Origin: Sulfurovum sp.
GTDB taxonomy: Bacteria > Campylobacterota > Campylobacteria > Campylobacterales > Sulfurovaceae
Direction of reading: 5' to 3'
Length of the DNA: 36,317 nucleotides
Assembly: GCA_027068485.1 (NCBI GenBank)
Contig: JAMOSB010000005.1
Span: forward strand, 1-36,317
Positions 6,964 to 28,729 of the stretch are shown here, one piece after another; position 1 is the first letter of the stretch, and every line of letters begins with the position of its first letter. Both the position numbers and the translations under genes were made by a program. A model generated the notes under the pieces. The model did not search any database, was not told the origin of the DNA, and saw nothing but the letters and a program-made list of their open reading frames with translations.

Positions 6964-7717
6964 ACTCTTAGTCAAATACGCCAAGAAAGCCATCGTTAAG
7001 AACCCTGAAGCCAAAGTCAAAGGGGTCACGGTCTTAGAGTCTAAAACACACAAAGCCCTCAAAGGGTGGCAGGTACTTTTGACAACAATCGACTTGACCT
7101 ACAAAGGCAAAGAGATCCATGCTCCTGAGATGATGTTTGTCAAAGATGGACTAATCACAGGGAATCTCGTCGACCTCAAAACAGGCAATGACTACCGTGA
7201 TCAGATACGCCCAACTGTACCGCAGAGCTACTATAGTGCGGAGCATCTACTCCTAGGCAATAAGGATGCAAAGCATAAGGTACTGATCTTCTCTGATCCA
7301 CAGTGTCCCTTCTGTCAAGAGACGGTACCTGAGATCTTTGAGGCTGCCAAGAAGCACCCTGATACGCTTGCTGTCTACTACTACCACCTCCCGCTCTTGC
7401 GTATCCACCCTGTTTCAGATGTCCTCACTCGCGTAATGTATGTGGCACAGCATGAGGGGAAAAGTGAGGTAGTAGAGAAGATCTATAGCCTCAAGATCTC
7501 CGCACGAGAGAAAGATACCGCCAAGATACTTAAAGCGGTCAAGAAGCATACAGGCTACAGTATCACCCCAAAGCAGATTGATGCACAATCGGTCAAAGAT
7601 GCGATCAAAGCGGATGAGCTAGCAGCAGGCAAGATGATGGTCACAGGCACCCCTACAATCTATATCGATGGAGAGTGGGACAAGATGCGTGTAGGTTACA
7701 AAGATTTGATAGACTAA
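6884..7717 (+). CDS. Secreted thioredoxin-fold (DsbC/DsbA-like) disulfide oxidoreductase
   Basis: A periplasmic thiol-disulfide protein of 277 residues. It has an N-terminal hydrophobic signal ([17 protein letters not shown]), an N-terminal domain of about 100 residues, and then a thioredoxin fold with the redox motif CPFC at 141-144 (context SDPQCPFC) and the cis-proline motif GTPTIYIDG near the C-terminus. The domain order resembles DsbC/DsbG more than DsbA, but isomerase versus oxidase cannot be decided. AAGGAG at 6872-6877 sits six bases before ATG 6884, which I prefer to ATG 6878, where the site would abut the start. The first ~80 bases overlap the end of fxsA. Its place between fxsA and hemC suggests co-transcription with the haem operon. 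Confidence 0.85.
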   Translation: MSLMSKLLMSTVVATLTLSASPKIENKLLVKYAKKAIVKNPEAKVKGVTVLESKTHKALKGWQVLLTTIDLTYKGKEIHAPEMMFVKDGLITGNLVDLKTGNDYRDQIRPTVPQSYYSAEHLLLGNKDAKHKVLIFSDPQCPFCQETVPEIFEAAKKHPDTLAVYYYHLPLLRIHPVSDVLTRVMYVAQHEGKSEVVEKIYSLKISAREKDTAKILKAVKKHTGYSITPKQIDAQSVKDAIKADELAAGKMMVTGTPTIYIDGEWDKMRVGYKDLID

Positions 7718-8779: not shown

Positions 8780-10662
8780 TCACCGATAGCGTTGTTTCTC
8801 ATAGAGATAGTTGAGTCCTAGGATGAAGGCTAGGGCATCGTGTTCTAGGGCTTGGTTGTGTGGGGCAGGGTGGAGATGTTGTTGGGTGTAGGTGAAGGTC
8901 TGGGCGGGTTTATTGGGGCGGATGACGGCGACTTGGTCATCGACTCTGAGGGCATAGCTCTCATTAAACTGCATTAGGGTGAGGTTGGCTTTGGTGTCAG
9001 AGAAGATGGTGTTGCCTAGGATAGGGTAGTGGAGGTCTTTGCCTAGGTAGTCTAGGGCAGTGGCAAGGACATCAGGTTGAGAGGCGAGCTTGGTGTAGGT
9101 GGTGGGGGTGACTCCCTCTCCCAAAATTAGTGCGGGGATATGGAACATCGAGACAGGGACGACATCATCCCCATAGACACGGATATTGTGATCGGCGATG
9201 ATGACGAAGATGGTATCTTGGTAGTAGGGGAGCTTTTTTGCCTCCTCAAAGAACTTCCCTATCGCATAGTCCGCATACTTCACGGCGTTCTCTACACATC
9301 GTTCTCCCGCTTTGACCTCTTGGATACGCCCTTGGGGGATATCAAAGGGAGAGTGGTTGGAGGAGCTAAACATTAACGCGGCGAAGGGTTTACCCGCATC
9401 GTAGAGCTGGCTAAAGCGTTGGTTGGCTTTGGTGACCAAATCCTCATCACTCACCCCCCAAGTGGCGACAAAGTGAGGTGCATCATAATCTTTCTGCTCG
9501 ATAATCTCATCAAATCCATTGCCCAAGAACCACGAACGCATATTGTCAAAGCGTGCCTCTCCGCCGTAGAGGAAGAGGCTATGGTAGCCTGCCTAAGGGT
9601 TTGAGGAGTGAGGCGAAGGTGAAGAAGTCGCTTTGGGATTTGGTGCGTTTGACGACTCCTTTGCCTGGTACGGCTAAGAAGCCCGCACTACTCCCTGCAA
9701 TCCCTCGTACACTGCGTGTCCCATTGGAGTAGGCATCATCAAACCAAAGCCCCTCTTGTTTAAGTTTGAGTAGCTCAGGGGTGATTTGAGGGGAGACAAA
9801 CTGATAGCCAAGACTCTCTTGGAGGAAGATGACGAGGTTTTTTCGCTTGGGTGTTGGGAAGTGGCTCTTTTCGAGTCGTCTAAAGGGTGAGGAGCTATTG
9901 CGCTCTGTAGGGGTGATACCGAGGCGTGCGTGCATGCGTTGGAGTGCCTCCTCGATAGGCATCTTGCCGTAGCGTTTGATCGCTTTGGTGGCGTACTTTT
10001 TGTTGGCATAGATGGCATAGCCTACTGAGTAGAGGGAGTTTTTGGTGATCTCATTGATGATACGATTACTCGAATACATCGCATCAGAGAGGTTGGCAGG
10101 GCGATGCCCAAAGGAGGAACGCACCCCGATTAGTAGCAGAAGAGCCAACGGGACAAACCAGAGTAGACGATGGGTCAGTGGGGTCTGGAGTGGAGCGATA
10201 AAACTGGTCTTGCTCTGCTTGATGAAGATCCAGCTAAAGAGTCCTATCATCACAAAGGCGATACTCAAGGGGAGCTTGAAGTCTGCAATGAGCATATGGA
10301 ACACCTCGACAGGGTACTCAAGGTACTCTACAAACTTAAAGTTGGGGCGGACATCGTACTGACTGAAGAAAGGGAAGGTCGCCACCTCCATATAGATGAG
10401 TAGCCCAAAGATAACTAAGAAGTAGAGACGCAATAGGAGGTTGGTGATACGACTCAAAACCGTAGGGCTAAAGGTGAGGAGAATAAGCGGGAGTATCAAG
10501 AGTATCGAAGCGAGCATTGTATCCATCTTGAGTCCATAGAGAAAGCTCAGATAGTAGTTGACCCCACTATCGGCAAAACGGTCAAAATAGAGCCAAACGC
10601 CCTATAAAAAAGATCGTAATCATCAAGAGATAATACTGGAAGAGTTTTTTAGCCACAGCCAT
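8780..10662 (-). pseudogene. LTA-synthase-like membrane sulfatase / phosphoglycerol transferase, two frameshifts
   Basis: Members are inner-membrane proteins with an N-terminal TM block and an extracytoplasmic alkaline-phosphatase-fold domain that transfers phosphoglycerol or phosphoethanolamine or acts as a sulfatase. Read from ATG 10662, the frame stops at 10582 after 26 codons (MAVAKKLFQYYLLMITIFF...). The protein continues in the neighbouring frame from about 10600 (WLYFDRFADSGVNYY) to 9579, with further TM helices and the catalytic-threonine segment SNGTRSVRGIAG. It is then broken again at 9587-9594 by a tandem GCCTGCCT and resumes to 8780 with metal-site motifs SSNHSPF and ADHN. Removing one AGGC unit restores PLGYHSLFLYGG, and removing one base around 10590-10600 restores the N-terminus. 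About 627 residues when repaired. Sequencing error could explain the single-base lesion but is less likely for the 4-bp duplication. Confidence 0.85.
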
Positions 10663-15242: not shown

Positions 15243-17816
15243 ATGTCTATTTTAGAAAAATTAACCAACCAAATGCAGGGGAGTATCGAGTCGGGTATCT
15301 CTCTAGCACTACATAGCAAAAACCAAGAGGTGGAGCCGATCCATATCATCTGGGCACTACTGACCAATAGTGGTTCTATCTTACACCAAGCACTCAATAA
15401 AATGAATGCGGATAAAGCCGCTATCGAACTAGAGGCGAAGAGTGTGGTACATCGACTCCCTACTGTCTCTAGCGTCACCAAGGAGAGTATCAAGCTCTCT
15501 GCCAATCTTGTGCGTTCGTTGCAGGGGGCTGAGGGGGTGATGGTCGCCAATGGGGATCAGTATCTTGCAGTGGATGCGTGGCTCATTGCCAATGCCCAAG
15601 AGCCTTTTAGTCAAGAGGTATTAGGTAAGTATATCGATATGAGTGAGTACAAAAAGACCCTAGAGTCTATCAGAGGGGGGAAGCGTATCGACTCTCAGAG
15701 TGGAGATGAGACACTTGAAGCCCTCGCACAGTATGGGATCGACCTCAATCAAAAAGCCCTTGATGGGGAGCTAGACCCTGTGATAGGGAGAGATGAAGAG
15801 GTACAGCGGATGATGCAGATCCTTATCCGTAAGACCAAAAACAACCCTATCCTTATCGGGGAGCCTGGGACAGGTAAGACGGCGATTGTCGAGGGTCTTG
15901 CACAGCGTATTGTCAATAAAGAGGTGCCACTCAGCCTCCAAAATATGCGTGTGGTAAGCCTAGATATGTCACGGCTTATTGCAGGGGCGAAGTATCGTGG
16001 GGAGTTTGAAGATAGACTCAAGGCAGTCGTCGATGAGGTCAAGGAGAGTGCTAATATCATCCTCTTTATCGATGAGATTCATACTATTGTAGGGGCGGGA
16101 GCGAGTGAGGGGAGTATGGATGCTGCCAATATCCTCAAGCCTGCCCTTGCCCGTGGGGAGCTTCATACCATCGGAGCGACCACTCTCAAGGAGTACCGTA
16201 AGTACTTTGAGAAAGATACCGCCCTTCAGCGACGCTTCCAGCCTGTCAAGGTCGATGAGCCGAGTATCAATGAGGCGTTGCAGATACTACGAGGGATCAA
16301 AGACAAGCTAGAGGCACACCACAATGTCAATATCACTGACTCTGCTCTAATCGCTGCTGCGAAGCTCTCTGATCGCTATATCACCGACAGATTTTTGCCT
16401 GATAAGGCGATCGACTTGATCGATGAAGCCGCAGCAGAGCTAAAGATGCAGATCGAATCAGAGCCGACCGATCTAGCCAAAGCCAAACGGGAGATCTCCA
16501 CACTTTTAGTCGAGAGAGAGGCACTCAAGATGGAGGAGAGTGATAAAAACAGTAGTCGCCTAGAGGAGATTGTCAAAGAGCTAGCTGACCTTGAGGAGCA
16601 TAAGACGACCCTGCAAAATCAGTTTGATAATGAGAAGCAGGTCTTTAATGATATCGCAGAGGTCAAGGTGGCTATCGATACGCTCAAGACCCAAGCAGAA
16701 GCGGTCAAGCGAGAGGGGGACTTCTCCAAAGTTGCAGAGATAGAGCATGGACTTATCCCCGCTCAAAATCAAAAACTCCTCACCCTAGAGGAGAAGTGGC
16801 AGACGATGATGGCAGAGGGAACACTCCTCAAAAACTCTGTTGATGAGGAGATGATCGCGAGTATTGTGAGTCGCTGGACAGGGATCTCAGTGAGTAAGAT
16901 GCTCCAAGGTGAAAAGGAGAAGATTCTCGCTATCGAGTCGATACTCCAAGAGGAGGTCGTAGGACAAGAAGAGGCACTCAAAGCAGTCGCACGAGCGATC
17001 AAGCGAAACAAAGCGGGATTGAGTGATCTCAACCGTCCTATCGGGAGCTTTATGTTCTTAGGCCCTACAGGGGTTGGTAAGACTCAGGTGGCAAAGACCC
17101 TTGCGAAGTTCCTCTTTGACTCTGAGAAGGCACTGATCCGTATCGATATGAGTGAGTATATGGAGAAACATGCTGCGAGTCGATTGGTTGGGGCACCTCC
17201 AGGGTATGTTGGCTATGAGGAGGGGGGACAGCTCACTGAAGCAGTACGACGAAAACCCTACTCCGTCGTACTCTTCGATGAGATAGAGAAGGCACACCCC
17301 GATGTCTTTAATACCCTGCTTCAGGTGCTTGATGATGGACGCTTGACAGACAACAAAGGGGTGACAATCGATTTTAAAAATACGATTATCATTATGACCT
17401 CTAATATCGCGTCTGATAAGATTATGACGATTAGTGATAAGGTGGCAAGAGCGGAGGCGGTCAATGAGGAGCTGAAGAAAAACTTCAAACCAGAGTTTCT
17501 CAACCGTCTGGATGATCAGGTGATCTTCAACCCACTTGACCTCGATGCGATTACGGCGATTGTGGATATCCTCTTCAAAGATATCCAAGCCAAGCTCCTT
17601 GCACGCGATATCACGCTGACACTCACCCAGAGTGCCAAAGCCTATATCGCCCAAGCAGGATTTGACCCTGTCTATGGGGCAAGACCACTCAAGAGAGCCC
17701 TCTATGAGGTGGTAGAGGATCGTCTCGCGGAGATGATCCTCGAAGATCGTGTGGTAGAGGGGAGTCAAGTCGCCTTTGATGTGGTAGAGGGGGAGATCGT
17801 CGTAACGGTCTCTTAA
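15243..17816 (+). CDS. clpB: ClpB disaggregase (Hsp100 AAA+ ATPase)
   Basis: A hexameric cytoplasmic ATPase that, with DnaK, pulls polypeptides out of aggregates. The protein has 857 residues: N-domain 1-150, NBD1 with Walker A GEPGTGKT at 206-213 and Walker [10 protein letters not shown], a coiled-coil middle domain around 400-530 (rich in Glu/Lys/Leu), and NBD2 with GPTGVGKT at 607-614 and [19 protein letters not shown] precedes ATG 15243. The stop codon overlaps that of the convergent SiaA-like gene by three bases, leaving no room for a terminator between them. Heat-shock regulation is suggested by the upstream operator. Confidence 0.97.
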
Positions 17817-20170
17817 TCTCTTGTCACCCTTGGGCTAAACCCGATAAGGGTGATATCATCATTGCGTTCCTCTTGGGCTTGGTAGCTCTGGAGGGCGGTG
17901 ATGAGGTGCTGTTTGTGTTGCTCTAGGGGGAGGTGTTGGAGACTGGCAAGGAGTCTCTTGAAGCGTCGCTTCCCAAAAGGAAATCCTCTCTCCCCACCAT
18001 TTTGGTCGATATACCCATCTGTCGAGAGATAAAACTGCATCCCCTCATGGAGGGAGATCGACTGCTCTTGGTAGGGGTAGTGGCTATCACACTGCTTATA
18101 GCCCACTGAGTAGCGGTTGGGTTTGAGTATCTTGATCTGCTCATTATCTCGATAGAAGAGGGGGATATTTGCCCCTGCAAAGGTGAGTTGGTTCTTGGCT
18201 GTATCGATGAGGATAATCCCCGCATCAAACCCCACATTGGCATTGCTCTGCTCTTGCTTGAGGAGCTGTTTGAACGCTTGGTTAAAGTGTGTGAGGAGAA
18301 GAGCGGGAGAGAGGCTTTGGGGGGTGAGTGTGAGGATCATCTGCTCATGGATCGCTTTGATTAACATCGTCACAAACGCACCTGAGACCCCATGTCCTGT
18401 ACAGTCTATCACACAGAGTAGATGACGAGTGTCGTCTATCGTATCAAAGAAGTAGATATCTCCCCCGACGACATCTTTGGGTTGCCAAAGAGTGAAGTAT
18501 GACTCAAAACACGCCGATAGGCTCTTGGGATCTGGGAGGATAGTATTTTGGATGAGTGAGGCGTACTCGATACTATCTTGGAGCTTTTGGGTGGTGGCGG
18601 TAAGCTCTTGGGTGCGTTGGGTCACTTTGAGTTCGAGGTTTTCATTGAGTTCTTTGAGTTGATAGGTCTTTTTGTCGATGAGCTGTTTGAGCTTTTTGTT
18701 GATGAGTATCGAAGTGGTGACGATGAAGAGTAGGGCGAGGAGTATCCAGCCCAAGAGGTGCCAGTCTAGCTCTTTTTTGACCTGTATGGAGGTCCATTTG
18801 TGATAGATATCGCTAAGCTCCTTGGTCGAGAGAGAGGCGAGGATAGTGTCGATACTCTCGATGACACGGGGGTCGACCTCTTTACGAAGGGCGATTTTGA
18901 GATGGAACATATAGTCAGTTTTCATATAGATTTTGAGGTCATCAAATCCTAAGACATTGATGTAGTAGATCGCCGTGATACCATTGATCCCAAAGTACTC
19001 TATCTCCCCTCTGCGGAGTGCTTCAAGCCCCTCTTGGATATTTTTAAACTCTCTAAATTGTGCATAGAGGTAGGTATCTCTGAGCCACTCTCCAAGGGAG
19101 TTACCTGCAACGATACCGATACTTTTATCGATAAAACCTTCTGAGAGGGAGAGGGGCTTATTCTCATCTGAGACGAGGACAGCGGGGTAGGAGTAGATAC
19201 TATTTTTGGTGAAGTTGAGGTACTGCTCCCGCTCTTTGGTTTGGGGTACGGCACTAAACATCTGGGCTTTTCCCTCCTTGACCATCTTGACAGACGCTGC
19301 CCAGCTCTCCGTAGGGAGTACTTTGAATGTGATCCCACTCTTGCTAGAGATGAGGCTGAGGATATCAGCGATGATTCCAAAGTGTGCGTGACTCATCTCA
19401 TCTTTGTACTCAAAGGGTCGCCAGTCTGGGTCAAAGACATAGTGGATGACCTGATTTTTACACTGCTGTGCGGTAGTGTAGTAGCGTTGGTCTTTGTCGA
19501 GTATCCAGTTCTTCTCCACCTCCTCTAGCTGATGGGTATCGAGTGTTTTGAGTCCTTGGTTGAAGCGTTCGATTGCTTGAGGGCTTGAGGAGATGGCACT
19601 TACTGCTGAGATACTAGAGAGAGAAGAGGCTTTTTTGATACGGTGCTGATAGCCATTTTTGATCGCGAAGTAGGAGATGGGAAGCGTATCATCATAGATC
19701 ACATCGATACGATGATTCAAGAGGGCATTGAGTAGATTGGAATAGGTCTCATAGGAGTGGAGGATGGCTTGGGGTAGTTTATTTTGAATATCCTCTTGGT
19801 AGTCCTCGCCAATGATCCCTACACTCTGAATGGTCTCATTGAACTCCTTGAGACCAAAGAGGGCTGTTTTGGTTTTGTAGTAGGGGGTGGAGGCGTGCAT
19901 CCACGGCTCATAAGGCTCTGTTCCCAAGAAGAAGTCCACATGTCCGCTCTTGGCTAGGGATAAGGCATCATCCCAATCCTTAGCCTCGACAAACTCCACA
20001 GTATAGTGGTTCTTCTTGCCCCAGAGCTTCCAGATATCGATAAAGAGTCCATGAGCTTTATGATTGATTGCGTAGGAGAAGGGGGCATAGTCTGGATCAT
20101 ATGAGACCTTAAAGGTTTGAGCCTGAGAGAAGAGTGTGAGGAGTAGGGAGAGTAGAAAGAGCCGTACCAC
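17813..20170 (-). CDS. SiaA-like PP2C (SpoIIE) phosphatase with two periplasmic solute-binding domains
   Basis: 785 residues. In order: a signal/anchor ([18 protein letters not shown]); a first SBP_bac_3-type domain (about 20-225, starting [14 protein letters not shown]); a second one (about 240-465, [10 protein letters not shown]); a TM helix near 472-492 ([16 protein letters not shown]); a coiled coil to about 540; and a SpoIIE-type PP2C domain with metal-ligand motifs [28 protein letters not shown] and [10 protein letters not shown]. SiaA of Pseudomonas aeruginosa dephosphorylates SiaC; the SiaB and SiaC homologues next door support the same role here. SiaA normally senses through other domains, so the tandem SBP sensor is notable and suggests an amino-acid-like ligand. 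The GTG start follows the siaB-like stop by 11 bases, with AAGG nine bases upstream. Confidence 0.85.
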
Positions 20171-20181
20171 CTAAATCTACC

Positions 20182-20715
20182 TTAGTCTATCATCGCACAA
20201 AATTTGAAGTAGAGTCGCTCATCTGAGAGTGCTTTAAACTCAAAGCTCACCTTTTCAGCTTTTTTGGCTACTTCCAAAAAGCCCAATCCACTCCCTTTTT
20301 CATGGGCATTTCGTCCACTACGACGCACTTCACGGTAGAGTTTTTTGATCTCCTCTGGGCTAGAGGTGATGATCTGCTCTAGTTTGGGTTCCATACGCTC
20401 TTTATCACTCAGCAAAATAATATTTTGACTACAAATAAAGTACTTCCGCTCTCGTTTCCCAACAAAGATCAACCCCTTGGGGTCAAACTTGGTACTGTGT
20501 TCAAGCTTTTTAGAGTAGTTCATGATATTTTGAGCCAGTTCGATAAAGACCACAAAGATGTTGTTGGCAGATCTCATAGAGAGTTCATCCTCTTCGACCT
20601 CCTTCTCCAAGACATTGGTCATCCCTGCGATAAGCGATTGGCTAAAGGAGCCACCATAGGTCAAAAATATAATATCATCTTCAAGTACTGATTCGAGTTT
20701 CTCTATTGAGATCAT
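20182..20715 (-). CDS. SiaB-family protein kinase (GHKL fold)
   Basis: 177 residues. It resembles SiaB, which phosphorylates SiaC on Ser/Thr and opposes the phosphatase SiaA. Visible are an N-box-like IELAQNIMNYSKK (E59, N63), a basic linker REVRRSGRNAHEKG and a G-box-like GSGLGFLEVAKKA, the pattern of a histidine-kinase/anti-sigma ATPase fold. It is soluble, with no TM segment. Its ATG lies one base after the histidine kinase stop, and its AAAGGA ribosome site lies within the end of that gene, so the two are coupled. Activity is inferred from the family and its neighbours. Confidence 0.8.
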   Translation of the reverse strand: MISIEKLESVLEDDIIFLTYGGSFSQSLIAGMTNVLEKEVEEDELSMRSANNIFVVFIELAQNIMNYSKKLEHSTKFDPKGLIFVGKRERKYFICSQNIILLSDKERMEPKLEQIITSSPEEIKKLYREVRRSGRNAHEKGSGLGFLEVAKKAEKVSFEFKALSDERLYFKFCAMID

Positions 20716-20716
20716 G

Positions 20717-21661
20717 TTAATCCTTTAGTCTAAAAGTAAATTTAGCACCCTCTTGGGTGTTGGTCGCACTGAGTGTCCCGTTGTGTTTGTGGGCGATCTT
20801 GGTACTCATATAGAGTCCGACTCCTGTCCCGTGTTTGCCTTTGGTAGAGGTGTGCATATCGAAGAGACTCTCTAGCATCTCCTCAGGAATCCCTCCTGCA
20901 TTGTCGGTCACCTCTAGGCTCTTTTTCGCACCTAAGATAGTGATTGTAATCTTGCGATCTTTGATGCCATTTTGCAAAAAGGCGTATTTGGTATTGCTGA
21001 TGAAGTTGAGGAGGATATGCTTAAACTCGTGGATATTTCCTACAATGGTGAAGTCGCTGATGGTATGGACAGAGAGGTCGATGTGGTACTTTGTCAGCTC
21101 ATCTTGGATGAGGGTGATAGTGTTGGCCACCACCTCACTTGCACTAAACTCCTTGAGGACTTTGACAGGTTTGAAGAAGTCTCGGAAGTTGTTGAGGGTA
21201 TCGACGAGGTGCTGTATCTGTGCCATTGATTTCTCTTTGAAGAGGGCAATCTCCTCTTGGGAAGTCCCTCCATTTTTTTGTGACTCAAGCTTGAGGATAC
21301 TGATACTCATCGAGAGGATATTGAGTGGCTGTATCCACTGGTGGGCGATCGCATCGGTCATCTCCGCTACCGCAGCAAGCTTAGACTGCTCAAAGAGTAT
21401 CTCCTCTTGCTCCTTTCGTTTGACTATCTCCTCTTCGACCTTCGCCTCTAGGTCGTTTTTGTAGCTATCAAGCTCCTCGTTGAGTTCGATGATCGCCATC
21501 TGTTGTTTGTCTGAGAGCTTGATGATTTTGTTGAGTCGAGCCTCTTTTTTTTGGTAGATAGTAGAGAGAAGCTCGACCTCTTCAAGGATACTTTGACACT
21601 CCTCATCATCGATAGTAGAGAGCTTATCTATGATCTTGTCAAACTTTTTATTGTATTTCAT
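20717..21661 (-). CDS. Soluble HisKA histidine kinase within the Sia operon
   Basis: 314 residues with no membrane segment. The N-terminal ~90 residues are a long charged coiled coil. The H-box AIAHQWIQPLNIL carries His107. The N-box is HILLNFISNTKYAF, followed by the G1 box VTDNAGGIPEEML and G2 box GTGVGLYMSTKIAHKHNG. It lies between the siaC-like and siaB-like genes, 16 bases after the former. No response regulator is encoded in the window. Position suggests that it is the output of, or an input to, the SiaC switch, where Pseudomonas has the diguanylate cyclase SiaD. That role is inference. Confidence 0.88.
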   Translation of the reverse strand: MKYNKKFDKIIDKLSTIDDEECQSILEEVELLSTIYQKKEARLNKIIKLSDKQQMAIIELNEELDSYKNDLEAKVEEEIVKRKEQEEILFEQSKLAAVAEMTDAIAHQWIQPLNILSMSISILKLESQKNGGTSQEEIALFKEKSMAQIQHLVDTLNNFRDFFKPVKVLKEFSASEVVANTITLIQDELTKYHIDLSVHTISDFTIVGNIHEFKHILLNFISNTKYAFLQNGIKDRKITITILGAKKSLEVTDNAGGIPEEMLESLFDMHTSTKGKHGTGVGLYMSTKIAHKHNGTLSATNTQEGAKFTFRLKD

Positions 21662-21677
21662 CGATTGACCTTTGACC

Positions 21678-22052
21678 CTACTTCTCGATAAGATTAATCG
21701 TCAACATCTCAAAATCCTCGATAAAATCTTCTCCTGCCTCTTTAGCACTCTCATTCTCCTCATCATAGATCCAGTTGATAATGATCTCAGACGCCTCATT
21801 GTACTCCTCTAGTAGATCAAAAAAGTCAAAGAAGAGCTTGGAGCTACTGGAGTTGAAGTAGATGATACTGAAGTTAACCGTGGTGAGTGGTTGGGGGTCA
21901 TTGAAGTAGGTTTCCACCCACTCCATAAAAGATTTATAAAATTCAAAAGTGTTTTCAGGGTAGGACTTACCACTGAGTTCTATTGTGCCACTCTCCGCGT
22001 CAAGTTTGATGTGAGGTGTATATTTTGTAGATTCAATCTCTAAGTTTTCCAT
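21678..22052 (-). CDS. SiaC-family regulatory phosphoprotein (DUF1987)
   Basis: 124 residues, the usual size. The DUF1987 core is visible: TPHIKLDAESGTIELSGKSY, PENTFEFYKSFMEWVETYF and the phospho-acceptor strand-helix IIYFNSSSSKLFFDFF. In Pseudomonas aeruginosa SiaC the switch residue is, from memory, Thr68 of an N-T/S-S-S-K motif; the first serine here is Ser68. SiaC is toggled by the SiaB kinase and SiaA phosphatase, and its unphosphorylated form binds the output enzyme. First gene of the minus-strand operon C-HK-B-A. Confidence 0.85.
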   Translation of the reverse strand: MENLEIESTKYTPHIKLDAESGTIELSGKSYPENTFEFYKSFMEWVETYFNDPQPLTTVNFSIIYFNSSSSKLFFDFFDLLEEYNEASEIIINWIYDEENESAKEAGEDFIEDFEMLTINLIEK

Positions 22053-22281: not shown

Positions 22282-23688
22282 CTACCTCATTACCCCCATC
22301 ACATACCCATTGAGTTGATACATCAGCAGGGCAAAGAGGGTGAGGGTGAGGAGGAGGTAGTAGCTGTTTTTGGAGTGGAGTATGGTGATGATGCGTCCGA
22401 AGCCTACCTCTTTGAGTGTCAGCCCAAAGAGTACCCACCCTCCGATACTCCCCGCTAGTGCCAAGCCTGATGCTCCCATGGGGTGCATGAGGAGTAGGGA
22501 GGCGAGGATATTGATGAGTACGGAGATGGTGGCGATCATCGCGGCTTTGCCTTGGCGGTAGGTGGCGTAGAGGAAGAGTGAGAAGAGTTTGGAGAGACCA
22601 AGAGGGAGTAGCCCTAGCATAAAGAGGCTCAGTACCTCTGCGGTCGCTTGGCTCTTTTGGCTATCAAATGCCCCCCGCTCAAAGAGGAGCCAGATGATAG
22701 GCTCTGCGAGTATCACCCCTCCCACGGTCGCCATCCCTAGAGCAAAACTAAGCAACCAAAACCCCTTGGAGAGGTTGGCATAGGCGAGGGTTTCGTTGTC
22801 ATTTTTGAGTGCTTTGGAGATGCTAGGGAAGAGGGCGGTAGCCGTCGCGATGGCGAAGAGTGCCAAGGGGAGCTGGAAGATCCGCTGGGCATAGGTGAGA
22901 TAGGAGATCGAACCCGTCACTAAAAACGAGGCGAGTATCGTCCCCACAAAGCTGTTGATCTGTAGACTCGACCCTCCCCACACCGCAGGGATAAAGAGGC
23001 GGGTAAACTTCTGCTTCTCGTGGGTGATATCTTTGCGGTTACGGTATCGCCACCCTCCAACCAAAAGCCTAGAGAGCTTGAGCCGATATAGAGCGATGAG
23101 GTGTACCGCAACTTGAAGCACACCACCCACAAGGACAGAGATACTTAGAGCATAGGCGATGGTTTTGGGATCCTCTCTCATAAAGAGCAGGAGTGCCACG
23201 ATCATCGAGAGGTTGAGCAGTACCGTCGACATCGCTGTGGTGACAAAATGCTCTTTGTACTGTAGGAGGGTAGCGATAAAGGTGACGATAAAGATGAGGT
23301 AGAGGTACCAGAAGTTGATCGCGGTGAGAGGGGCGGTATCGGCGATACGCGTCGCACTCCACCCCATCGCTTGGAGCATGGTGATTGTCTCAGGTGCAAG
23401 CGTAACCAGCAGAGACCCAAAGATAATAAAGAGTGAGAAGCGTAAGAAGATCGCCGTAGCAAAGACCCCTTTGTTGGAGGATGCGACAAAAGAGGGCATA
23501 AATGCCTGCGTAAACGCCCCCTCCGCGAAGATATTGCGAAAGAGGTTGGGGAGGCGGTTGGCAAGGAAGAAGATATCACTCCAGTAGCTCGCCCCCAAGG
23601 TAGATGCCAAGAGAATATCACGCACAAAACCAAAAATACGGGAGAGCAGTATGCCAAAACTGTTGGTGAAGATCGATTTGAGTCGCAT
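22282..23688 (-). CDS. murJ: Lipid II flippase MurJ (MviN)
   Basis: Moves lipid-linked peptidoglycan precursor across the inner membrane. The protein has 468 residues and about 13-14 hydrophobic segments. The N-terminal signature SRIFGFVRDILLASTLG, with conserved arginines, and RLPNLFRNIFAEGAFTQAF are diagnostic of MurJ. ATG 23688 has only a weak upstream ribosome site. Transcribed alone from a TATAAT at 23722-23717. It sits between the Sia operon and the tri-haem lipoprotein gene, divergent from the latter. Confidence 0.95.
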   Translation of the reverse strand: MRLKSIFTNSFGILLSRIFGFVRDILLASTLGASYWSDIFFLANRLPNLFRNIFAEGAFTQAFMPSFVASSNKGVFATAIFLRFSLFIIFGSLLVTLAPETITMLQAMGWSATRIADTAPLTAINFWYLYLIFIVTFIATLLQYKEHFVTTAMSTVLLNLSMIVALLLFMREDPKTIAYALSISVLVGGVLQVAVHLIALYRLKLSRLLVGGWRYRNRKDITHEKQKFTRLFIPAVWGGSSLQINSFVGTILASFLVTGSISYLTYAQRIFQLPLALFAIATATALFPSISKALKNDNETLAYANLSKGFWLLSFALGMATVGGVILAEPIIWLLFERGAFDSQKSQATAEVLSLFMLGLLPLGLSKLFSLFLYATYRQGKAAMIATISVLINILASLLLMHPMGASGLALAGSIGGWVLFGLTLKEVGFGRIITILHSKNSYYLLLTLTLFALLMYQLNGYVMGVMR

Positions 23689-23808: not shown

Positions 23809-23861
23809 TGATTAGTCTGCTGTGGTGAGGATACCCACGCACGATATGAGGAGAAATAGAG

Positions 23862-26800
23862 ATGAAAAAAACAACTTATCTTGGTATGGTATTGGTGATG
23901 GTGTGGATACTCACTGGGTGTATCTCCGTGACCAATGAGACAGTGGAGGGAGCAGGGACTCCTGATGTGACAGAGTGTTCGATCTTGGATGGAGTGCTTG
24001 ATGGCAAGGAGTTTGTCCCTCGGACGACTCTAGTAGGGCATGGCGATAGCAATCGTACCGACCCTGATATCTTCTATATCGGCTGGGCAGAACTCAACGA
24101 CCGTATCGACCTTCGCTCTCCTGAGAAGGGCTATAGTGATAGTGGGTTTGAGGATAAGCTCTTTGTCTCTCGCAAAGAGAGCAATGGGAGCTACACCACA
24201 TGGCAGATTTATCCTAAGCTCGATGAGTCGTGTAAAGACCTAGAGAAGGTACGCATCCAGAGCTTCGATGTGGCACCTGATGGGAAGAGCCTCTACCTCT
24301 CGATGAGTCGTGCGGTCTATGCGAGTAGCGATACCAACCACACGACCAACCTCAACCCTGAGGGGAATCTTGCGATCTATAAGCTCGATATCGCAGACCA
24401 AAAGCTCACCCCCATCAGTCATGATAGTAGTGTGAGCTATAGCTACCCTACTTATATAGGGGAGGATAACGCCACAGGGCATGAGATGCTTCTTATCTCC
24501 AAGACCGTTACCAAGAGTGAGATTCCCCTCAACTACAAGCACGATCCACTTCTGCGTGATGAGTATGATCGTGCTCCTGCCCCCCTCATCCATACACTCG
24601 ATACCGTCACGGGGAGCGTGACACGGATAGGGTTTAACAACTCTCATCAGACTGAAGCGACGGTAATCAACCGTGAGAGTGATACCCCCTTGGTGGTCTT
24701 CACACAGTGGGAGCATCAAGCCACGGTCAACCGTTTCTCTCTCTGGAAGATGCAGATTGATGGGAGTGATAGCTTTATGTTCTATGGAGAGGAGGCAAAC
24801 AGCAAAGATAGCGAGGAGAACCTCTACCAAGCACGCCAAATCATGAGTGGAGTCTACAAGGATTATATTTTGATGGGGCAATCTGCACGCACGGGCAATA
24901 CGGGCAATTTCATCGCTGAGGGGGATATCGTCATGACCAAACGAGACAATCTCGACTTGCGAAGTGATAAGATCTACCTCTCACGCTTGGTCGATGACCA
25001 CGGGATTGAGAAGTCTATCGCCCGTACCCCTGATCACTACAATGATCAGAGCTTTGTCTACGCCTACCGACCCAGTACCGAAGAGAGCTACGGTATCTAT
25101 GTCAAAGAGTACCCTACAGACCCCGCCAATCCTACCGATGAGGGGGCAGGGGAGTTGGTCTTTGCACATAGTAGCTACCATATGATGCAACCTCGAAGCT
25201 TCTACCCACCCAAGAGCAAACGCGTCGCACCAGGGCTGAGTGATGTGAGTGAAAACCGCTTCTCCTTCACCAATACCCACCTCAATGGTAAGTCGGGTTT
25301 CTTGGTCAATACTTTGAAGTTTTCGGATAATGGGGAGCAACATCAGCTAGATGGTATCGACACCGATGAGATACGGATGCAGTTCCAAGTCCCCTCTCAT
25401 CACTTCTCAGACTCCTATGCCATTGGGATGGAGCATAGCCCTGAGTTGAGTATCCCCTCTAGTGACTTTATCAAGCCTGAGAGTGATGGATCGATGGGGA
25501 TTATCCTCAAAGAGGGACTCTATATCTGGAAGCTCCATAAGCGGTTTGTCCATCGTGATGGAAGTGGACAGGAGGGGGATCTCTGGATCCCGATACGCTC
25601 CGAGCGTCAAGAGGTGAGCTTCGTCCCCAACCGTGTCAATGCGTGTAACCAGTGTCACCAAGACCGAAGCCAAGACAACCTTGACAAGTATGCCAACTAC
25701 CACTCTATTGCTGAGAAGAAGATGCAGGGGGATTTGAGTGATATGTTGCAAACAGACAAAGATATCTCTGAGTATAATGCCACTAAGCGTATCCCCGATT
25801 TCCATAAAGATATCGCCCCACTCTTTACCAAAGCGGGACTCAATGGTGGGAAGTCGTGTGTGGCGTGTCATAATGAGACCGATAAGCTCAACCTTGCTAA
25901 CCCTACAGGGATCACCCCACGCAATATGCTCTACCGTACCCTCGTCTTGGGAGCTCATCTCATCGAGGGGACAACCACTACCCTGCCTTATCTCTATGAC
26001 GATATTAACCCGATGATGATGGATAATGACTTCCACCCCGCACCCTTCTTGTGGTCACTCCTGCTCAATGATGACCTCACTGTAGCACCTGATAGTAACC
26101 ACTCCAATGAGGGACGACGAAACCTTGAGCGAGGAGGGGATTATGGTGCGAAGTTTAGTCAGAGTGTGCGTGATGAGATTGGGCGTATCAATGACCTCTA
26201 TGACCACAGCCAACACTTCTCACTCGAAGATACCCAAAAGCTCATTGAGTTTGGGAGCAACCGTCTAGCAGTGGGGTTGTCTGATCGAATGAGTTTTGTG
26301 AGTGATACACTCAGTACCCAGACCCCACAAGCCCAAAAAGCCTACCAAGCACTCGTACGCAACTGCTACAGCTGTCACAACACCCATACGACAGGAGGGG
26401 TGAGAGATGCGAATTTTGCAGATATTCAGCCCAAGCAGAAGCGGTATAGTGAAGCCTCCTATCTACGAGACGCTATCATGCGGTTTTCAGTACATCGACA
26501 CCTTGCCAACAAAGGGGATACCCAATACTCCCAATACCTCTGGCAGAGTAATCTCACATACTCAATGAGTAAGACACTTGATTCTGCACTCTATCGTGTT
26601 AACTTCAATGACCCTGAGAACTCAGAACTACTTGTCTATGCACGAGGCTACAAAAAAGAGTCAAACGGTACCCAGACCCCACTCAATGAGACCATCAAAG
26701 CCCATGCGGGGTACCTGAGTGAGGGGGATAAGGACTACACCGCACTAGAGAACTGGATCAAAGGGGTCACCATGAGCAATCAACCCCCCGTACTCCATCA

Positions 26801-27971
26801 GCCTACCAATCCTATCGTTATCAAGGAGTATGATGCCCCTGCATTTATTGGAGAGAGTCTTACTTGGAGTGATGGAGATGATGAACTCTCACAACTCTTC
26901 CTCTCGGGTGTCAATAGCACAGAGCATACCTTCAATGACTCGATGCTCTCCCTAGAGTATCAGAGCCTCGTAGAGGCGAAGCTCAAAGCCTACGCGATAC
27001 TCGGTGATAGAGGTGATCACAACTTTACCTTTACGCTGAGTGATGGACTCGACTCAGGGGTGATCCATAAGATTCCTGTGACGATCACCACAGACTACCA
27101 TGTCCCCGCTCCTACCGCACAACTGCCCAAATCCTACCTCTTCTTTACCGATAGAGCGACAGGGATGCTCAAGAAACTCGATAGTAATGGTACAGAGATT
27201 GAGATCGGGTTGATTGATGGCTTTAGTGAGGAGTGGACGACCGTCTACCGTAGAGCGGAGAAGGGGTGGCTCTACTTTGTCAATCAGGCAGAGCAGAAGA
27301 TCTATGTCGTTGATGAGCGAGATGCCAAAGTACTCTTTGATATCACCATCGACAATAGCCCTAACCAAGTTGGAGCCTCCCATACACAGACACTCTACCT
27401 TATCTGGTGGCGTGATGCTGAGGGGCAGGTGGGTGATGCCAACTACACCGCAGGGGGACTAGAGGGACTCTTGGAGTCGAAGCTTAGTGATAAGCAGGAG
27501 GTCAATGGAGACTTCTATGTGGGGCTTGGTAGTGGGGAGTCTACAGAGCGTACCGTTGTCCCTGAGTGGCGTACCAAGCTTCATGATGGAGGCAACACGC
27601 TTGATGTCTATGTCTGGCGACGGGCGACCTTTATGACTAAACTGGTCAATAGTGGGGTTGATCGGATGAATGTCCTCAACCTTGTCACAGGAAAGCCTAA
27701 GTTTCTTACAGACTTTAGCTTCCCTGCGAAGTCTGTCGATGGGGTGGACTATGATGCAGCGACCTATGCCAATGTCCGTGCGATCGTCGTAGCAAAAGAT
27801 GGGGCGTTTTATGGGTTCAATAAAGACCTCAATCAAGACCCTGAAGCGTTCAACTTTGACCCCCTCACCAAGATACAGAAAAAGGTAACAATCCCTGCGT
27901 GGATTCAGGCCTATATAGAACACTATACAGACTATGCGACACCATTTTTTGTCATAGAGTCTAAACATTAA
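23862..27971 (+). CDS. Large tri-haem c-type lipoprotein, HzsA-related type
   Basis: 1369 residues. The lipoprotein signal has lipobox LTGC with Cys20. Residues ~50-450 carry propeller-like repeats (FDVAPDGKSLYLSMS, ending around YHMMQPRSFYPPK), resembling the hydrazine-synthase-alpha-like (HzsA-related) group. Three haem-attachment motifs follow: CNQCH (595-599), CVACH (666-670) and CYSCH (835-839). After about residue 970 comes an Ig/cadherin-like stretch (PPVLHQPTNP...FTFTLSDGLDSG) and then a second propeller-like C-terminal region. No hydrazine-synthase partner genes are present, so true hydrazine synthesis is not suggested. An electron-transfer or oxidoreductase role at the cell surface is more likely. 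The beta-barrel gene follows 11 bases later. The family call is from memory; the haem motifs and lipobox are directly visible. Confidence 0.75.
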   Translation: MKKTTYLGMVLVMVWILTGCISVTNETVEGAGTPDVTECSILDGVLDGKEFVPRTTLVGHGDSNRTDPDIFYIGWAELNDRIDLRSPEKGYSDSGFEDKLFVSRKESNGSYTTWQIYPKLDESCKDLEKVRIQSFDVAPDGKSLYLSMSRAVYASSDTNHTTNLNPEGNLAIYKLDIADQKLTPISHDSSVSYSYPTYIGEDNATGHEMLLISKTVTKSEIPLNYKHDPLLRDEYDRAPAPLIHTLDTVTGSVTRIGFNNSHQTEATVINRESDTPLVVFTQWEHQATVNRFSLWKMQIDGSDSFMFYGEEANSKDSEENLYQARQIMSGVYKDYILMGQSARTGNTGNFIAEGDIVMTKRDNLDLRSDKIYLSRLVDDHGIEKSIARTPDHYNDQSFVYAYRPSTEESYGIYVKEYPTDPANPTDEGAGELVFAHSSYHMMQPRSFYPPKSKRVAPGLSDVSENRFSFTNTHLNGKSGFLVNTLKFSDNGEQHQLDGIDTDEIRMQFQVPSHHFSDSYAIGMEHSPELSIPSSDFIKPESDGSMGIILKEGLYIWKLHKRFVHRDGSGQEGDLWIPIRSERQEVSFVPNRVNACNQCHQDRSQDNLDKYANYHSIAEKKMQGDLSDMLQTDKDISEYNATKRIPDFHKDIAPLFTKAGLNGGKSCVACHNETDKLNLANPTGITPRNMLYRTLVLGAHLIEGTTTTLPYLYDDINPMMMDNDFHPAPFLWSLLLNDDLTVAPDSNHSNEGRRNLERGGDYGAKFSQSVRDEIGRINDLYDHSQHFSLEDTQKLIEFGSNRLAVGLSDRMSFVSDTLSTQTPQAQKAYQALVRNCYSCHNTHTTGGVRDANFADIQPKQKRYSEASYLRDAIMRFSVHRHLANKGDTQYSQYLWQSNLTYSMSKTLDSALYRVNFNDPENSELLVYARGYKKESNGTQTPLNETIKAHAGYLSEGDKDYTALENWIKGVTMSNQPPVLHQPTNPIVIKEYDAPAFIGESLTWSDGDDELSQLFLSGVNSTEHTFNDSMLSLEYQSLVEAKLKAYAILGDRGDHNFTFTLSDGLDSGVIHKIPVTITTDYHVPAPTAQLPKSYLFFTDRATGMLKKLDSNGTEIEIGLIDGFSEEWTTVYRRAEKGWLYFVNQAEQKIYVVDERDAKVLFDITIDNSPNQVGASHTQTLYLIWWRDAEGQVGDANYTAGGLEGLLESKLSDKQEVNGDFYVGLGSGESTERTVVPEWRTKLHDGGNTLDVYVWRRATFMTKLVNSGVDRMNVLNLVTGKPKFLTDFSFPAKSVDGVDYDAATYANVRAIVVAKDGAFYGFNKDLNQDPEAFNFDPLTKIQKKVTIPAWIQAYIEHYTDYATPFFVIESKH

Positions 27972-27982
27972 GGAGAAGAGAG

Positions 27983-28720
27983 ATGAAAACCGTATCAACC
28001 ACTATCATAACAGCACTGCTCTGTAGCACACTACTACACGCAGAGGGTAAAGGGGTCGTCGAGACCGAGATCTCACCCGTCGAGATTCCTGTAGCCCAAC
28101 GCCCCCTCTATGACTATATGGGACTCAAAGCGGGGACTTTGGGCGTGGGGATTGAGTATGCGATGCCCCTCAACCGCAACTTCTTTGTACGCTTCAACCT
28201 CAATGGATTGAAACTCGATACCGATAAGACCAAAGAGCAGATTAATTACGCTGTGGAGTTAGGCCTACTCAGTGCGGGGGTACTTATCGACTACTACCCA
28301 ATGGATACAGGAAGCTTTCGTCTGAGTGCGGGTGCCTACTACAACGGCAACACCCTCGATGCGAGTGCCTCCCCTGATGCTACGGTCAACTACGATGTAG
28401 GAGGGAGTATCTATACGGGAGCTCAGATTGGTCAGCTTGATGGATCGGTGGAGTTTCCTGCGTTGGCTCCCTATATCGGGATAGGCTATGGTGGGGGTGA
28501 GAGTCACAAAGGGTGGGGCTTCTCTATCGATATAGGGGTACTCTATCACACCAGCTCCGATGTCGAACTCAAAGTGAGCAGTCCACTCGCCACACTCGAT
28601 CCTGCTGCGTTTTCGCAGCTAGAGCGTGATATCGAGCAAGAACGCCAAGAGACCGAAGATGATCTGGAGGATTTTCCTTTCTATCCTGTGGTGATGCTTG
28701 GTGTCACCTACACCTTTTAG
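27983..28720 (+). CDS. Outer-membrane beta-barrel protein
   Basis: 245 residues. A signal peptide (MKTVSTTIITALLCSTLLHA) is followed by alternating amphipathic strands (GTLGVGIEYAMPL, FFVRFNLNGLKL, SFRLSAGAYYNG, WGFSIDIGVLYHTS) and a C-terminal strand ending in Phe (VVMLGVTYTF), the usual outer-membrane assembly signal. An acidic coiled segment (LERDIEQERQETEDDLEDF) sits before the last strand, probably in an extracellular loop or periplasmic turn. It lies 11 bases after the tri-haem lipoprotein gene with its own ribosome site (AAGGAG), so the two are probably co-expressed. Function unknown. Confidence 0.8.
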   Translation: MKTVSTTIITALLCSTLLHAEGKGVVETEISPVEIPVAQRPLYDYMGLKAGTLGVGIEYAMPLNRNFFVRFNLNGLKLDTDKTKEQINYAVELGLLSAGVLIDYYPMDTGSFRLSAGAYYNGNTLDASASPDATVNYDVGGSIYTGAQIGQLDGSVEFPALAPYIGIGYGGGESHKGWGFSIDIGVLYHTSSDVELKVSSPLATLDPAAFSQLERDIEQERQETEDDLEDFPFYPVVMLGVTYTF

Positions 28721-28729
28721 AGGGCTGTG

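Follow-up and report, generated by a model that had tools for sequence, protein, structure and literature searches.

A predicted tri-haem outer-membrane lipoprotein with HzsA-like architecture, linked to small beta-barrels and often to Lit, in bacteria that include sulfur and iron oxidisers

What do the two co-directional plus-strand genes between murJ (22282-23688, minus strand) and ruvA (start at 28727) in a Sulfurovum genome (1.73 Mb, 98% complete) encode, and do they belong together? We analysed the whole 36,317-nucleotide stretch of DNA in which they lie (hereafter the window; contig JAMOSB010000005.1). A sequence-only reading had described a 1369-residue lipoprotein with propeller-like regions at both ends and three CxxCH motifs, followed 11 bases later by a 245-residue barrel, and had likened its N-terminal and haem parts to HzsA-related proteins. 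HzsA is the alpha subunit of the anammox enzyme hydrazine synthase (Kuenenia stuttgartiensis, PDB 5c2v chain A); HzsA-like (HZS_alpha-domain) proteins are known in Planctomycetota and Desulfobacterota, and the origin of hydrazine synthase is debated. The open reading frame, ribosome-binding site and signal peptide ending in an LTGC lipobox were all present, and the barrel gene does start 11 bases past the lipoprotein stop (Table 1). A scan for promoters and terminators gave nothing above chance level, and no tRNA or Rfam features were found in the window.

Table 1 Features of the gene pair, with positions in the window.
Feature	Position	Strand	Basis
Ribosome-binding site of lipoprotein gene, AGGAG	23849..23853	+	Sequence
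Tri-haem outer-membrane lipoprotein gene (predicted), 1369 aa	23862..27971	+	ORF; family of 23 aligned members
Lipoprotein signal peptide and lipobox LTG-C20, +2 residue Ile	23862..23921	+	Sequence; C20 invariant in 20/20 members holding that position
N-terminal beta-propeller, about residues 55-450	24024..25211	+	AlphaFold2 model; VIA TolB matches, Z about 20
HzsA-like middle domain, about residues 451-581	25212..25604	+	AlphaFold2 strands; match to 5c2v_A spans the region
Haem motif 1, C595NQCH599	25644..25658	+	CNQCH invariant in 23/23
Haem motif 2, C666VACH670	25857..25871	+	Family alignment, conservation
H782, candidate distal haem ligand	26205..26207	+	Invariant in 23/23; putative offset of HzsA His772
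Haem motif 3, C835YSCH839 (third haem)	26364..26378	+	Family alignment, conservation
Ig/cadherin-like domain, about residues 975-1080	26784..27101	+	AlphaFold2 strands; weak Cadherin_3/Big_9 matches in members
C-terminal beta-propeller, about residues 1085-1369	27114..27968	+	AlphaFold2 pLDDT there mostly 80-94; VIA Z 13.5
Ribosome-binding site of barrel gene, AGGAG	27971..27975	+	Sequence
CarO-family small outer-membrane beta-barrel gene, 245 aa	27983..28720	+	NF038067 8e-11; family profile vs CarO structures

The lipoprotein contains nine cysteines: the lipid-anchor C20, the pair C39/C124 and six haem cysteines. In an alignment of 23 family members all nine were invariant wherever a member covers the position, and ten histidines were invariant as well. 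When the protein was shuffled 20,000 times the number of CxxCH motifs reached a maximum of one (mean 0.001), so the three observed are far above expectation. These motifs, of which the first two are 71 residues apart and the third lies 169 further on, are invariant across the family in a protein exported by a signal peptide, as is characteristic of c-type cytochromes. The N-terminal propeller carries C124, paired with C39, and the invariant histidines 244, 262, 285 and 440, while the middle domain carries the invariant H513 and the motif WIPIR.ERQEV.F. Every member that includes the N-terminus had I or V, and none had Asp, at +2, as in outer-membrane lipoproteins; together with the lipobox this points to an outer-membrane location. 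It should be noted that the stretch after the lipid cysteine (23919-23980, residues 20-40; GCIS..N.TV and then GTPD.T.C) shows a conservation that is unusual for the linker of a lipoprotein, and is possibly a recognition element.

We used AlphaFold2 to model the protein in two overlapping parts. For residues 21-1080 the model was of moderate quality (pLDDT 63, pTM 0.45), and stretches of its haem region were weak; its first Foldseek match was HzsA (5c2v_A, E 1.8e-10), followed by propeller-only proteins (5.7e-6). VIA also placed 5c2v_A first (Z 23, 538 residues aligned, rmsd 7.4), with model residues 35-783 matched to HzsA residues 51-793 at 13% identity. As the TolB propeller matches in VIA (Z about 20) took in only about 267 residues and ended near residue 430, roughly half of the HzsA-aligned residues lie beyond the propeller. 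Residues 500-1369 gave a better model (pLDDT 79, pTM 0.73) with a C-terminal propeller at about 1080-1367 (VIA Z 13.5); HzsA was not among the VIA matches listed for this model, but as these are filled by the C-terminal propeller its absence is uninformative on the haem part. Propellers were predicted at both ends, as had been proposed, and the HzsA-like order of propeller, middle domain and haem domain was recovered, at moderate model confidence.

The resemblance to HzsA held for this predicted architecture but not for sequence or chemistry. None of the 23 members matched PF18582 (HZS_alpha) at E ≤ 1, so a profile search did not bear out the proposed HzsA-related middle domain, and a family profile found no HzsA match in the PDB at E ≤ 10, either in full or with the middle and haem region alone. 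PF18582 likewise had no match in 15 carrier genomes, where the controls held no positive either. In HzsA the haem alpha-I iron is ligated by Tyr591, four residues past the CxxCH histidine, zinc is ligated by Cys303, and His772 is the distal ligand of haem alpha-II (PMC12758564). The family alignment has S, N or D and never Tyr at the position four residues past H599, and the only cysteines before haem 1 in the window protein are C20, C39 and C124, with no counterpart of Cys303. The invariant H782 would lie at the offset that the VIA match gives for His772, as judged from the ends of the matched ranges and not from a residue alignment. Compared with HzsA, which has two haems, the window lipoprotein keeps the order of N-terminal propeller, middle domain and c-haem domain and adds a lipid anchor, a third haem, an Ig-like domain and a second propeller, but it lacks the active-site Tyr and Cys, and no HzsB- or HzsC-like genes were seen among the neighbours in the window or at the relatives' loci. 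Common descent with HzsA is likely given the fold and domain order, although no sequence method found HzsA. An HzsA-like architecture with two propellers, next to a CarO-type barrel, is supported by prediction.

To define the family we queried 84,980 species genomes with two short exact peptides, and found 23 loci in three phyla, with 44-72% identity that in most cases extends over the whole protein; as the scan relied on these peptides, further members probably exist. The hosts are Sulfurovum and other Campylobacterota, Thiothrix, Thiomargarita and other Thiotrichaceae, Chromatiales, Mariprofundaceae and a Troglogloeales bin (Nitrospirota), and include sulfur and iron oxidisers. Distribution was patchy: true copies were present in 2 of the 78 genomes of the window genus (a third match there was spurious), in 1 of 397 evenly drawn Campylobacterota genomes and in 7 of the 63 genomes of the order Thiotrichales, two of these being fragments. 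In the gene tree Thiothrix occupied two well-supported places, and the Nitrospirota copy clustered with two Thiothrix copies. Horizontal transfer is the simplest reading of this placement, with the usual caution over bins, and on the same reading the lipoprotein and barrel would form a horizontally spread module. No relatives were found in plasmid and viral collections. The match to a membrane GGDEF-like protein at L003/L005 (33-35% identity over about 80 residues) was dismissed as chance or local resemblance. The Troglogloeales copy (L019, 6125-10317) consists of two ORFs, split near 7030-7051; either the gene is broken or the sequence contains an error.

In 18 loci the lipoprotein gene has a neighbouring barrel gene, which belongs to one of three families. 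CarO-type barrels lie directly downstream (-14 to +17 bases) in ten of these (the window, L006, L014, L027, L015, L016, L018, L019, L020 and L073), a TIGR04219-like barrel lies directly upstream in three Mariprofundaceae loci, and in five Sulfurovum-group loci the tri-haem gene is followed first by a further lipoprotein, which has cadherin domains in L009, and then by a TraF_2-like barrel; the complete loci L021 and L025 have no adjacent barrel. The three families in the same position suggest that the presence of a barrel matters more than its type. A profile of nine linked barrels, which are 18-45% identical to the window barrel, matched the CarO structures 4fuv, 4rl9 and 4rlb in the PDB (E 2e-13 to 1e-9, 4fuv best), so that the barrel of the sequence-only reading could be assigned to the CarO family. 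The window barrel scores below the equivalog cut-off of NF038067 and is hence not the ornithine porin itself; unlike CarO of Acinetobacter, the linked barrels adjoin a cytochrome lipoprotein gene. As both genes and their linkage are conserved in other phyla, their pairing in the window is not due to chance, and the objection that they might lack conserved linkage falls away.

A second gene linked to the family encodes Lit (lipoprotein intramolecular transacylase), known mainly from Firmicutes (Bacillus cereus and Enterococcus, with Lit2 in Listeria). Unlike the Firmicutes enzymes, the linked copies occur in diderms and adjoin the gene of one specific haem lipoprotein. A Lit gene is adjacent in ten loci (L009, L026, L011, L023, L014, L027, L015, L016, L021 and L073), and the copies scored exceed the Pfam PF07314 cut-off. 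The catalytic motifs of B. cereus Lit surround His85 and His153 (PMC8275575); among the ten linked copies HxxxV is present as strictly written in nine, with a conservative change to HLLDI in L023, and FxxxHxxxFxxxxW in nine, being missing in L021. According to a review (PMC11784454), Lit N-acylates a lipoprotein by shifting the lipoprotein's own acyl chain, Lol transport is licensed by N-acylation, and in E. coli lit can take the place of lnt for transport to the outer membrane. Gene linkage and this known chemistry suggest that Lit acts in editing the anchor of the tri-haem lipoprotein. The link is not obligatory, since the window genome has no Lit: none was found in the 78 genomes of its genus or in the 397 sampled Campylobacterota genomes, and Lit is also missing in several other carriers of the lipoprotein. 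It was present in all three cassette-bearing Campylobacterota searched outside the window genus, and within Campylobacterota it was found nowhere but next to the lipoprotein gene.

A Lit-family homologue occurs in 33 of the 63 Thiotrichales genomes. We rejected the idea that every one of these belongs to the cassette, as several of the homologues checked sit among unrelated genes and are without the second catalytic motif. In three Thiothrix genomes (L061, 7545-9772; L062; L064) rpiA lies directly beside lit, and in T. fructosivorans (L016, 9157-17408) the tri-haem lipoprotein, the barrel and a WD40 lipoprotein are found between the two. Judging from this gene order, the cassette appears to have been lost or gained at the Thiothrix rpiA-lit site. 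Genome G162, which carries the tri-haem family elsewhere, also encodes (L070, 8513-13126, minus strand) a 740-residue lipoprotein with nine CxxCH motifs and a Calx-beta domain; next come a Calx-beta protein and, after it, Lit. This nine-haem protein is a second multihaem kind linked to Lit.

Elsewhere in the window, three other regions deserve mention. The minus-strand genes at 17813-22052, upstream of murJ, encode a SiaA-like phosphatase, a SiaB-like kinase, a histidine kinase-like ORF and SiaC, the set of a biofilm/c-di-GMP switch. Between 12001 and 14200 the GC fraction falls to 0.29, compared with about 0.49, in a stretch that contains small ORFs and the gene of a C-5 cytosine DNA methylase, and this region looks like a recently acquired restriction-modification island. 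Two adjacent ORFs of 253 and 315 aa at 8780-10526 (minus strand) may be one broken sulfatase-fold gene, as the downstream ORF covers no more of the Sulfatase profile than its C-terminal part.

Our best explanation, to which we give about an even chance, is that the lipoprotein is a predicted outer-membrane oxidoreductase presented with its barrel. Its core would be a c-type cytochrome with three haems, anchored in the outer membrane and built on the HzsA-like plan of beta-propeller, middle domain and haem domain, to which the third haem, the Ig-like domain and the second propeller would be additions. The Lol route would carry it to the outer membrane, where the haem lipoprotein probably performs redox chemistry. 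The first haem, beside the propeller and middle domain in the place of HzsA haem alpha-I, may be the reaction site, and the others would pass electrons on, at least one of them probably with bis-histidine ligation (H670/H782). Given the hosts, the substrate class is likely to be reduced sulfur, nitrogen or metal species. Where Lit is encoded, at about half of the loci, this dedicated enzyme would N-acylate the anchor with one of the anchor's own acyl chains and in this way license transport by Lol or tune the anchoring; the window copy presumably uses the ordinary Lnt route.

The main rival to the oxidoreductase reading is a plain electron conduit resembling MtrC/OmcA, which would connect the periplasm with an external solid, a partner cell or a soluble cytochrome and have no site of substrate turnover. 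We consider this possible but unlikely. All 23 members match the MtrC/MtrF domain II/IV profile around haems 1-2, below threshold (best E 4.4e-7), and an outer-membrane haem lipoprotein with a neighbouring barrel gene, hosts that oxidise iron or sulfur and the nine-haem lipoprotein beside Lit in one carrier genome would all suit a conduit. However, the protein consists mostly of propellers and has three haems, spaced as given above, rather than the ten of MtrC/OmcA, and its closest structure is an enzyme subunit. MtrCAB combines a large porin with a periplasmic multihaem cytochrome, whereas here the barrel has 245 residues, no cytochrome gene occurs among the neighbours examined, and MtrA- and MtrB-like genes are absent beside the window pair. 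A cytochrome conduit of the kind found in porin-cytochrome systems would by no means fit into a barrel as small as the CarO type. The dominance of two propellers and an Ig-like domain could instead indicate a scaffold for binding or adhesion, with structural or sensory haems, and both the BtuG-type surface vitamin-B12 lipoproteins among the matches of the residues 500-1369 model and the SiaABC biofilm-signalling genes upstream in the window are consistent with this. Yet few parts of the protein are as conserved as the haem motifs and the residues flanking them, CNQCH and its neighbours being invariant, which would be unexpected for a scaffold and makes this reading improbable.

Two further readings assign the haems to known enzymes. 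Gluconate 2-dehydrogenase has a tri-haem cytochrome subunit, and the lipoprotein might similarly serve a GMC-type dehydrogenase, given that Gluconate_2-dh3 and GMC oxidoreductase genes lie directly upstream of it in three related Sulfurovum genomes (L009, 7661-9843; L010; L026) and that the window genome holds a GMC enzyme, 50% identical. However, at most other loci the cassette has no neighbouring GMC gene, and a search of 17 carrier genomes found no match whatever in 8 of them. Because the GMC gene is core in the window genus (66 of 78 genomes, vs 2 of 78 for the cassette) we see no association between the two; the dehydrogenase was rejected as a partner, and this very improbable reading is largely refuted. 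Nitrogen chemistry like that of hydrazine synthase would fit the architectural match to HzsA, but the substitution of Tyr by S, N or D, the lack of a Cys in the Cys303 region, neighbourhoods in which no HzsB- or HzsC-like gene was seen, and hosts that oxidise sulfur or iron, and are not anammox bacteria, make it extremely improbable.

In the literature searched we found no paper describing the lipoprotein-barrel-Lit gene set, and a tri-haem lipoprotein set that often carries Lit is new here. Tentatively, and as a doubtful proposition when taken as a whole, the predicted oxidoreductase and its partners may make up a mobile enzyme system in the outer membrane of chemolithotrophs, where the tri-haem lipoprotein with its HzsA-like plan would perform a new inorganic redox reaction and be matured by a private Lit, amounting to cargo-specific editing of a lipid anchor in diderm bacteria. 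A protein of predicted HzsA architecture, anchored in the outer membrane of sulfur and iron oxidisers, widens the known range of this fold, and the link to Lit offers a concrete case of an anchor-editing enzyme that would act for one specific cargo in bacteria with an outer membrane.
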